36,657 bases of DNA from Desulfobacteraceae bacterium (GTDB lineage: Bacteria > Desulfobacterota > Desulfobacteria > Desulfobacterales > JAABTS01). A program made the position numbers and the translations under genes. The notes beneath the pieces were generated by a model. The model did not search any database and was not told the DNA's origin. It worked only from the letters and a program-made list of their open reading frames with translations. Of the stretch, positions 5,395-36,590 are shown piece by piece (position 1 is the stretch's first letter; each line of letters starts with the position of its first letter). The DNA is taken from positions 1 to 36,657 of the forward strand of contig JAABTS010000043.1 in assembly GCA_011389735.1 (NCBI GenBank), in the 5' to 3' direction.

Positions 5395-5547
5395 TCAGAC
5401 ATTAAACTCGAGCGCGGCGTCGGTTGACGAGACGACGGATTGCGGACTTTCAGGCGCCGTCTCGCTCACCGCGCCGTTTGAAATCGAACATGACATTTCC
5501 GAAATAAAACTTCGCTCCGTTGCCGGTCGGAAATATGCGACTTGTAT
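5395..5547 (-). CDS. Possible 50-codon small ORF upstream of sbcC (ATA start)
   Basis: A strong ribosome binding site, GGGAGGAGG, sits just before an ATA codon on the minus strand. From it a 50-codon frame runs open to TGA, starting IQVAYFRPATERSF and ending SSTDAALEFNV. No ATG, GTG or TTG lies at the right distance; an internal ATG would leave 33 residues. The frame is open between a repeat end and the sbcC leader, about 78 nt upstream of the sbcC start. It may be a real short peptide using a rare start, a gene whose ATG mutated to ATA, or chance. I recognise no family. Confidence 0.28.
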   Translation of the reverse strand: MQVAYFRPATERSFISEMSCSISNGAVSETAPESPQSVVSSTDAALEFNV

Positions 5548-5559
5548 GACCTCCTCCCT

Positions 5560-5668
5560 TACAGGTTTTCAAAAATTGATTTCACGTAAGCCGGCTAGCC
5601 CGGGATCATACGATTGTAGTATATCCAGGGCCGACAACACAATGAAATTTGATTTCCGGAAGGCTGTA
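5560..5668 (-). repeat. Repeat family 1, full copy
   Basis: This copy reads ACAGGTTTTC at its left, a central inverted GC block (AGCCCGGGATCATACG and ATATCCAGGGCCGAC), and TTTCCGGAAGGCTGTA at its right. It matches the reverse complement of the copies at 10645-10750 and 30308-30413. It lies between the sbcC region and the ArsA pair, and the small ORF's ribosome binding site begins right at its edge. There is no coding content. Confidence 0.8.
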
Positions 5669-5795
5669 TCATTAAAAAAATTTTACTTTCCAAAAAGTTA
5701 TAGATACATGGCTTGTAAATTAAAATCAACGGTTTTATGGTCTTTGGCGGCTGGAAACGGACAATCATCGGCTTTCCCGGATCAGGCGGGCCTCG

Positions 5796-7846: not shown

Positions 7847-7878
7847 AATGGAGCTTGTCGCGTCTTCCTTTCTACGAA

Positions 7879-7910
7879 TTTTTCAGAAATAAAATTTCCG
7901 AAAGGCTATA
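7879..7910 (-). repeat. Repeat family 1, short form
   Basis: The sequence TTTTTCAGAAATAAAATTT runs straight into CCGAAAGGCTATA, joining the two ends of family 1 with the central hairpin absent. The same fused form occurs at 23223-23258. Confidence 0.65.
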
Positions 7911-12638: not shown

Positions 12639-12644
12639 TCAGGG

Positions 12645-12793
12645 CTTGGTTCTACCTTCGGCCATTTTCATTTATCGGGATCGGGATCGGGATCGAAATT
12701 GAATCCTTCGATAACGATAACGATCCCGATCCCGATTTGGATTCAAAAACTTCAAGCCCAATCACTAAACTGATGGCCGAAGTTAGAACCAAT
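12645..12793. repeat. Repeat family 3/4: inverted element with GGGATC hairpin
   Basis: The outer inverted arms are TTGGTTCTACCTTCGGCCAT and ATGGCCGAAGTTAGAACCAA. Between them, repeated TCGGGA units (12674-12695) pair with CGATCCCGATCCCGAT (12721-12736). The left arm resembles the left end of the elements at 19752 and 20882. It lies between the convergent protease and cheD genes, so it could act as a bidirectional transcript end. The repeat units are too short and too uniform for CRISPR. Confidence 0.75.
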
Positions 12794-12802
12794 CCCCTGT
12801 AG

Positions 12803-20793: not shown

Positions 20794-20813
20794 CTCTTTC
20801 ATTCTCCTGAATA

Positions 20814-20845
20814 TGGGCTTTCAGAAATTAAGTTTCTGAAAAACG
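20814..20845 (-). repeat. Repeat family 1, short partial
   Basis: GGGCTTTCAGAAATTAAGT then TTCTGAAAAAC is a fused-end fragment of family 1 lying upstream of cheR. Confidence 0.45.
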
Positions 20846-20881
20846 ACAGCCTGTTGGAAATTTCGGGGTTAAAAAAAAATC

Positions 20882-21183
20882 GGGCCGGGTTCTATTTTCG
20901 GCCATTTTAATAAAACCACGAAATAAACGAAACACACCAAAAAAATTTCATCAATATTTTGGCATCCTTCATAAACCCAGGAAAGTGGTTGACACTTTCC
21001 AAGTCGGGATCGGGATCGGGATCGAAACAATTCGCTCTCGATAGCGATCCCGATAGCGATAGCGATCCCGATCCCGATTTCAAAGTGTAAACTGACAGAT
21101 GAAGGATGCCAATATTTTCGTTTATTTCGTTTATTTCGTGGTAGTATCCAAAAATATAAGCGGCCGGTTTTTAAACTAAATCC
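20882..21183. repeat. Repeat family 3 copy interrupted by a family 4 hairpin element
   Basis: The outer ends (GGGTTCTATTTTCGGCCAT and ATATAAGCGGCCGGTTTTT) and the inverted ACCACGAAATAAACGAAA and TTTATTTCGTGG match family 3. The middle, 20961-21110, is a separate palindromic unit bounded by GGCATCCTTCAT and ATGAAGGATGCC. Inside this, GACACTTTCCAAGTCGGGAT pairs broadly with the CCCGATTTCAAAGTGT region, with GGGATC-type units and CGATAG units between. Confidence 0.75.
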
Positions 21184-23172: not shown

Positions 23173-23222
23173 AACTGTATTTCGGTTTATGAATCGTGGA
23201 TCGATCCTTAGCTCCTTTCTTT

Positions 23223-23258
23223 ACAGGTTCTCAGAAATTAAATTTCTGGAAGGCTATA
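23223..23258 (-). repeat. Repeat family 1, clean short form
   Basis: ACAGGTTCTCAGAAATTAAA leads directly into TTTCTGGAAGGCTATA. Both family 1 ends are present, joined at their shared GAAATTAAATTTC, and the central hairpin is missing. Confidence 0.7.
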
Positions 23259-24707: not shown

Positions 24708-24728
24708 AAAATCTAATAAACACATGAG

Positions 24729-25016
24729 GCTTTTCAGATATTCAAATTCACAAAGCGGCGGGCCTGGGATAATACTGTTTCTATATCGTTTCAGATAATT
24801 AATTTCACTGCGTTCCCGGCCCGGGGGGTATACTAATTTTATCATGTTGAATGTTGAATGTTGGATAATGTTGGATGTTGAAAGCGAGTCCCTCCATTCA
24901 GCATTCAACACAAAATGCAACAATCCCGGACCTGCCGCCTTGTGAAATTTAATTCCTGAAAAATTATATATCCCAGGCCGACAAAACAGTGGAAATTGAT
25001 TTCCGGAAGGCTATAC
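24729..25016. repeat. Nested repeat: family 1 within family 1, itself interrupted
   Basis: The outer copy is split: its first half (TTTTCAGATATTCAAATTCAC, then GCGGCGGGCCTGGGATAAT) is at 24733-24773, and its second half (ATATCCCAGGCCGAC, then TTTCCGGAAGGCTATA) at 24967-25016. Between lies an inverse-oriented inner copy (24785-24966). The inner copy is itself split at its centre by a run of GTTGAATGTT/GTTGGAT units and their inverse, CATTCAGCATTCAACA (about 24842-24923). Confidence 0.75.
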
Positions 25017-30307: not shown

Positions 30308-30413
30308 TTATAGCCTTCCGGAAATAAAATTTCACTATATTGTCGGTCTGGGATATATACTTTGTATGATCCCGGGCCGGCCGCTTTGTGAAATGTAATT
30401 TCTGAAAACCTGT
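30308..30413 (+). repeat. Repeat family 1, full copy
   Basis: It starts TTATAGCCTTCCGGAAAT and ends TCTGAAAACCTGTAG. The centre has GTCGGTCTGGGATATATAC and ATGATCCCGGGCCGGCCG. Confidence 0.85.
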
Positions 30414-30667
30414 AGCCCGATGATATACGGATCTTGCATGTTTCAGATTTAATGAGGCCCTCTGTTTCGGCGATCGTATTCAAATTGGGAAGAAATTGCG
30501 GGAACGCAACCGGCGCCGCTTTTTCGTTCCACGATGTACTTTATTGTTTTGACATTATTTGAACTTCAATATCAATGGGGCTATAGCGGTAATAAGCGGT
30601 GGGATAATCCTACTTTTCAAGTTTTCCCGCGTAATGCGATAGTCAAGGGTTTGCGGCGACAATTCGC

Positions 30668-36485: not shown

Positions 36486-36590
36486 GCATCCTTCATTTCT
36501 TGTTTACAGTTTCATCAAAATCGGGATCAAAATCGGGATCGGGATCGTAATAATTCGATACTGATTTGGGAAGTGTAAACTCAGAATTCT
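36486..36590. repeat. Repeat family 4 copy
   Basis: GGGCATCCTTCATTTCTTG, TTTACAG, repeated TCGGGATC units (36522-36547) and AAGTGTAAACTCAG match the inner element of 20961-21110, including its order. The right end is diverged and the pairing arm of the GGGATC run is missing. Confidence 0.65.

Follow-up and report, generated by a model that had tools for sequence, protein, structure and literature searches.

Nested insertion within a MITE-like repeat family at a central TA in a Desulfobacteraceae genome

Introduction

Correia and ERIC elements have TATAG-type ends and TA targets, and in both respects the repeat studied here (hereafter family 1) resembles them. IS630/Tc1 elements leave flanking TA and near-symmetric ends of the TAG..CTA type. 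For REP elements, a Y1 (HUH) transposase that reads a folded hairpin has been proposed. The self-nesting of short hairpin elements is a known kind of event. According to the passages of PMC3049150 that describe it, the RUP element of Streptococcus pneumoniae is 107 bp long, and has ends like those of IS630-Spn1, and repeats of its host genome have become inserted in each other. Family 1 shares with RUP, as characterized in those passages (PMC3049150), a comparable size, inverted termini, duplication of the target, a large number of intergenic copies, and mutual insertion. The two differ in that RUP has a resident insertion sequence with similar ends and about 110 copies (PMC3049150, same passages), whereas no such insertion sequence was found for family 1, which has roughly a thousand copies. 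This likeness is one of description.

Correia and ERIC elements also share with family 1 the properties of palindromic, intergenic, high-copy MITEs, as outlined in parts of PMC10969869, which gives ERIC estimates of up to 711 copies in Photorhabdus luminescens and a case of a MITE serving as an IS1111 target. They belong to other hosts than family 1, and here too the likeness is one of description. Finally, the BrickBuilt element of Porphyromonas gingivalis has a minisatellite within a MITE (23-bp units, 19 copies), as reported in the relevant part of PMC4596501, and is comparable in this respect to the long form of family 1 described below. However, the long form has 7-bp units and lies within an otherwise separate short MITE family.

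The locus analyzed here is located in an assembly of a Desulfobacteraceae bacterium (GCA_011389735.1). "The window" refers to the whole stretch of DNA analyzed, with a length of 36,657 nucleotides. An original prediction made from the letters of the window had proposed three nested layers at 24729-25016, namely an outer family 1 copy, an inner copy, and an independent GTTGAATG-type element within the latter.

Results

The family 1 element, about 106 bp long, is imperfectly palindromic and reads TAG...CTA (consensus TATAGCCTTCC..CACTGCGTTGTCGGCCCGGGATATACGAATAGTATGATCCCGGGCC..CCTTGTGAAATTTAATTTCTGAAAACCTATA), with TA on both sides. The family 1 model was built from 30 copies of the same genome (6.5 Mb in 477 contigs, one of which, C342, is the window), and was applied to a sample consisting of the window and 40 other stretches (801,357 bases in 41 stretches). 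This sample contains 266 fragments of family 1, of which 112 are full, 65 are left halves, 56 are right halves, and 33 are other pieces, compared with none when the same 801 kb were reversed as a control. A looser cut-off combined with chaining gave 158 elements, including 126 near full and 32 split. Family 1 makes up 2.7% of the sample and 21,810 of the 150,082 noncoding bases sampled (14.5%), densities that may run somewhat high given that the sample contigs were chosen by earlier family 1 matches. The window was not chosen for family 1 and has 10 of the 158 elements, which is a similar density. Scaling up led to a genome-wide estimate of roughly 1,300 elements, and first-look candidate counts were 794 and 1,028.

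Among 22 clean-ended copies, TA is present on the left in 20, on the right in 18, and on both sides in 17, compared with a background TA frequency of 4.0%. Based on a crude gene call, 118 of the 126 near-full copies are located outside ORFs of at least 100 codons and the other eight overlap such ORFs. Relative to tandem neighbors, 36 copies have the same orientation and 24 the opposite one, and 11 of 105 copies are found between convergent genes. This setting is consistent with a mobile repeat that is tolerated in intergenic DNA; a terminator role is unsupported by the orientation and convergent-gene counts. Family 1 has the features of a MITE in being short and noncoding, with terminal inverted repeats, many dispersed copies, and a TA duplication (to which unduplicated entry is formally equivalent). 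For the remaining feature, ends that match an autonomous transposon, a non-exhaustive search of the same genome and the inspected loci of relatives found none. The prediction that the element is noncoding and has no transposase is borne out. Since family 1 is noncoding, the enzyme that mobilizes it must be encoded elsewhere, and mobilization in trans, also part of the prediction, would follow. Rfam 15 gave no match in the window at the gathering score, the plasmid, phage, and viral collections gave no family matches, and a genome-collection scan with one window protein found no relatives.

Mini-forms of about 37 bp, in which both ends are kept and the center is absent, occur in the window at 7874-7910, 20812-20848, and 23222-23258. 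They look as if deleted between GAAATTWAATTTC repeats of both arms. In the sample there are 18 such matches in 15 distinct places, some of which may belong to larger copies, and none in the reversed control.

The nest at 24726-25015 has two layers, with a complete inner element located at the central TA of an outer copy. Its components are as follows.

24726-24783, minus strand: right-arm half of the outer family 1 element up to the central TA, with the outermost TATAG decayed (model 109-50 and letters)
24782-24783: TA, putative first copy of the target duplication (single TA in uninterrupted copies)
24784-24966, plus strand: inner element, a complete long-form copy of 183 bp (profile matches, long-form alignment, and letters)
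24845-24921, plus strand: long-form core of GTTGAATG type, made up of 7-bp units plus an inverted tail; part of the inner element and not an insertion of its own
24967-24968: TA, putative second copy of the target duplication (single TA in uninterrupted copies)
24969-25015, minus strand: left-arm half of the outer family 1 element (model 58-6), with the CTA end at 25013 and the flanking TA at 25014-25015

The nhmmer matches place the two outer halves on the minus strand (24728-24787, model 109-50, E 6.1e-13; 24964-25016, model 58-6, E 4.1e-12) and the two inner halves on the plus strand (24781-24844, model 6-67, E 6.2e-6; 24922-24969, model 66-113, E 4.8e-10). These four halves have the order and strands expected from the prediction that an inner copy in opposite orientation lies at the center of the outer one. 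When the insert and one TA are removed, the outer flanks form a single contiguous family 1 match (100.2 bits, E 1.7e-30), and the window site is the strongest nest among the 157 elements tested by joined flanks. The prediction that the outer halves are recognizable and in the right order is therefore confirmed, and the possibility that they belong to unrelated repeats is disfavored. Tandem duplication as the source of the order is likewise disfavored, given that the inner copy is inverted and that the sample has nine further strong nests.

In a BLAST search with the joined flanks of the window site, 83 matches elsewhere in the 801-kb sample cross the joint. The best pair aligns GGGATAATACTGTTTC-TA-inner element-TA-TATCCCAGG with GGGATCATACTATTCG-TA-TATCCCAGG, which has one TA instead of two; the comparison involves uninterrupted copies at other loci, with no orthologous empty site for 24726-25015. 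Judged from these letters, the pattern suggests a TA target duplication at the nest, and the letters would look identical if the element had TA at its ends and entered beside a TA without duplicating it. TA on both sides of the insert is what the prediction had guessed for an IS630-like source. No transposase was found among the ten window proteins scanned. The neighbors of the nest are a 111-aa frame without a match and a weak, below-cut-off match to a leptospiral lipoprotein family.

The proposed third layer was examined through 12 long-form copies, chosen by eye from 31 split pairs. All 12 have the same arms and the same core junctions, with differing flanks and a varying count of 7-bp units. 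The junctions (slash) are TTAT/GTTGAATG on the left and GCAACA/ATCC on the right, with a letter changed in a few copies. One of the 12 has a family 2 element inside the core. The first 434,657 bases contain 19 array loci, and 16 of these have a family 1 match no more than 200 bp away, including one (L062 9138) where the array overlaps that match and may itself be false. The remaining three are L063:11511, which carries a long-form left arm, L075:2524, with an apparent remnant, and L064:10921, where no arm was seen. For the 168 scorable left arms, an array follows in 19 of 39 long-type arms, seven of 110 short-type arms, and none of 19 unclear arms. Moreover, several nests hold a whole long form as the insert. 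The most plausible reading of the GTTGAATG array is that of an inherited variable core, i.e., an internal minisatellite, of a long-form subfamily. Because the junction is constant among the aligned long forms, the third insertion layer is rejected, and the core at 24845-24921 arrived with the inner element. Of the successive insertions originally proposed, the entry of the inner copy into the outer copy stands and the cutting of the inner copy by an independent element does not. This case is a caution that a minisatellite within a MITE can mimic a later insertion.

Other repeats are found in the same surroundings. Family 2 is another MITE (GGGCTTGGTTCTAA..TTAGAACCAAGCCC, often about 170 bp) and is present in the window at 12642-12796. 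Among its 25 paired-end hits in the sample, 15 have a duplication of 8 or 9 bp. Family 1 was considered as a hotspot for family 2; by the joined-flank test four of the 25 paired-end hits (some overlapping) lie in family 1, which is no clear excess, and one further hit lies inside a long-form core. Another small repeat, the third in this setting, has an end resembling TAGTGSCTGAACGAAAAC and adjoins or lies within family 1 copies at five loci (L008, L016, L282, L285, and L289), in the same genome and in G186, another genome of the order. Arrays of GATCGGGATCGGGATCG-type units form inverted repeats in the window at 12674-12742, 20990-21097, and 36514-36557.

To find other nests, the flanks of each element were joined with one TA and searched for family 1 across the joint, which covered 157 of the 158 elements (one being near a stretch end). 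A match across the joint was found for 11 of the 157, of which 10 are strong (34-100 bits) and one is weak (12.7 bits). With BLAST, matches that cross the joint were obtained for 13 of the 158 elements, though some of these are imperfect. In nine of the 10 strong nests, the insert is inverted relative to the outer copy. The clearest TA duplication is at L067 9339-9823, where a long form is inverted in a short one and emptying the site restores the exact 24-nt consensus spacer. L061 and L073 19261 are less clean, as one of their joints has a base change or an end that has decayed. A second nest of the window, at 5496-5673, has a full minus-strand copy in the right part of an older, diverged plus-strand copy (34.4 bits, E 3.9e-10). 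Four direct-orientation clusters (L068 17366, L069 5974, L071 11320, and L073 1615) have the order left half, left half, right half and no outer right half, and were excluded from the strong-nest count; L103 4111-4316 is a full direct-orientation nest.

The insertion points are concentrated at the center of the outer copies. Seven of the 10 strong nests lie in the 16-column central spacer, which accounts for 16.5% of the interior (p 2.5e-4 by length). Nevertheless, this spacer also holds 383 of the 729 interior TA dinucleotides (52.5%), and measured against this share the seven nests are unremarkable (p 0.35). The predicted preference for the AT-rich central loop thus holds by length and fits the TA share, such that the bias is kept here as a consequence of TA availability. 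Self-targeting was also evaluated, and 11 of 157 elements in family 1 compared with 14.5% of noncoding bases is no excess. In other genomes of the order, two versions of the family, a 104-nt type (L155) and a 125-nt type (L141), share one insertion point, the central TA of TATACCTCGAAAGG..CCTTCCGAGGTATA, a palindromic repeat unrelated to family 1 that has a single TA at that point when uninterrupted (L119 and L111); one L155 flank reads TG instead of TA. This arrangement provides independent support for insertion at TA, and may hint that palindrome centers are favored as targets. Family 1 centers of G186 contain other small insertions as well (L282, L283, and L286), but these loci were picked through their intact arms and cannot measure a center preference.

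The family extends across the order. A DNA search of 40 genomes found matches in six, namely the same genome and five relatives with 1-27 matches each. A scan of named genomes for one conserved stretch matched at least 95 stretches, and the 80 loci listed are from Desulfobacterales-type or deltaproteobacterial assemblies, with one titled only Proteobacteria; the stretch had no match in viral contigs. With a covariance model, the family was found in 54 of 194 genomes of the order (own genome included), representing 36 of 120 genera, and in seven of 247 genomes of a phylum sample, four of these being outside the order. Given this patchy spread, the family must often be lost or move horizontally. 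The copies of G067 and G186 include near-identical ones, which points to recent activity. A search for the letters of family 1 and for descriptions in this group found no matching literature among the entries listed, with subscription journals mostly outside its coverage, and the order-wide family is apparently undescribed.

The arms of the element are conserved as a structure. In an alignment of 35 copies, they are 87.6% paired over 27 positions and 12 pairs have changed on both sides, with an arm covariation of 0.201 (shuffling gave 0.088, and sliding no more than 0.056). Twenty-five of these copies were picked by the conserved stretch and are conserved there by construction; the core is also kept in copies not picked in this way (L033, L034, L035, L040, and L041). 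Two other loci (L280 and L281), found with a model built partly from stretch-picked copies, have the core with small changes and an inner stem TTTCAC/GTGAAA shifted toward TTTTGG/CCAAAA. The inner core is asymmetric (left TGCGTTATCRGTC, right CCYTCTRKCCTTG) and persists in copies with an altered flanking stem, and the distal hairpin occurs in at least three versions across the family. The window copy at 30309-30414 folds strongly as RNA (z -7.3); folds of stretches from L266, which covered little of the element, and from L270, which lacked its right end, were set aside.

For the mobilizer, DDE_3 (the IS630-type transposase catalytic domain) was found once in the same genome, in an element with the ends CTAGTGTCGCGTTTTGAAAGTTCTGCG; these differ from family 1 and this element was rejected as the source. 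An IS630 subgroup in the same order (L212, L241, L245, and others) encodes a DDE_3 transposase of about 420-445 aa and resembles family 1 in ends that begin with TATAG, but the inverted repeats differ past this motif (..ATGAATTGATAC vs ..CAGATAA.TAATTTCAC). The ends of the DDE_3 loci fetched from relatives, including this subgroup, do not match family 1, and these loci were also rejected. The full transposon with matching ends that the prediction had called for was found neither in the same genome nor at the inspected IS630-type loci of relatives. In G186, no end pair at transposon distance was present among the matches listed, of 150 ends found. DDE_3 is present in 82 of 194 genomes of the order, with 28 of 54 carriers and 54 of 140 non-carriers and hence no clear association (p 0.11), and was not found in six of the 16 carriers with at least 20 family matches, including G045 (listed as 100% complete) and G048 (two contigs). 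The TATAG-ended subgroup is present in 14 of 194 genomes, seven of which are carriers (p 0.07). As for the features of MITEs derived from IS630/Tc1-mariner elements, the TA duplication is present, and a shared inverted repeat is limited to the TATAG common to family 1 and the subgroup in relatives. In comparison with REP/REPIN-RAYT systems, family 1 has 106 nt instead of a palindrome of 20-40 nt, and 174 of the 194 genomes sampled from the order have Y1_Tnp.

Discussion

The best explanation, to which we assign a probability of about 0.82, is that family 1 is a MITE-like nonautonomous element and that an inverted long-form copy entered an older copy at a TA in the central spacer of the latter, probably through an IS630/Tc1-like mobilizer. 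Entry in opposite orientation would have produced the order of half, inner element, and half, and the long form and its 7-bp minisatellite center would have moved together in one step. The mover would be an enzyme encoded elsewhere, most likely a TA-targeting transposase of the IS630/Tc1 type that was lost from this genome or is unrecognized in it; judged by the TA target alone, this type is the best guess.

A history of three successive insertions, the last of them bringing an independent element (the GTTGAATG stretch) into the inner copy, is improbable. It gains from the presence of arrays on both long-type and short-type left arms and from the one array locus among 19 without a family 1 arm in sight, whereas the identical junction in all 12 aligned copies, the proximity of most array loci to family 1 (with a long-form arm or remnant at two of the other three), and the nests that carry an entire long form as insert all argue against it. 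A single old capture of the core by an ancestor would be compatible with these data and makes a separate insertion at this locus needless. Even less credible is that recombination or slippage between neighboring copies, instead of transposition, made the order. The copies are dense, and deletion between adjacent halves would explain the four direct clusters without an outer right half. However, the outer halves at the window nest rejoin at one TA without loss, the inner copy is complete and of another subfamily, other strong nests follow the same logic at other places, and insertion at TA is also found within an unrelated repeat.

The identity of the enzyme leaves more room for alternatives. 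That the mobilizer is not of the IS630/Tc1 type, but for example a Y1 (HUH) transposase reading the folded hairpin, is unlikely without being far-fetched, as it would accommodate the covarying arms, the kept asymmetric inner core, the element-rich genomes in which DDE_3 was not found, and the wide presence of Y1_Tnp. Nevertheless, Y1_Tnp is too common to be informative, G095 has 18 family matches and no Y1_Tnp at the threshold used, and TA on both sides together with near-symmetric TAG..CTA ends are IS630/Tc1 traces. A structured repeat of use to the host, such as an RNA element, a terminator, or a site for protein binding, whose spread owes more to selection than to its own mobility, could account for the covariation, the strong RNA fold of the copy at 30309-30414, and a core kept across the order. 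This is hardly probable when set against the lack of orientation bias, the few copies between convergent genes, the patchy distribution among genomes, the nests, and the bursts of near-identical copies. We also regard as doubtful, and quite unlikely on present comparisons, a broader reading of the order-wide family as a folded hairpin, in which it would be a transposon recognized by shape, moved by an uncharacterized enzyme, and prone to land in palindrome centers.

Under the preferred explanation of an inverted long form inserted at a central TA, the nest gives the relative order of insertions in a genome that is heavily loaded with MITEs. The part worth following is the order-wide family, with its covarying arms, its kept asymmetric core, and no mobilizer found, and a search for the enzyme is made practical by those genomes whose copies are near-identical.
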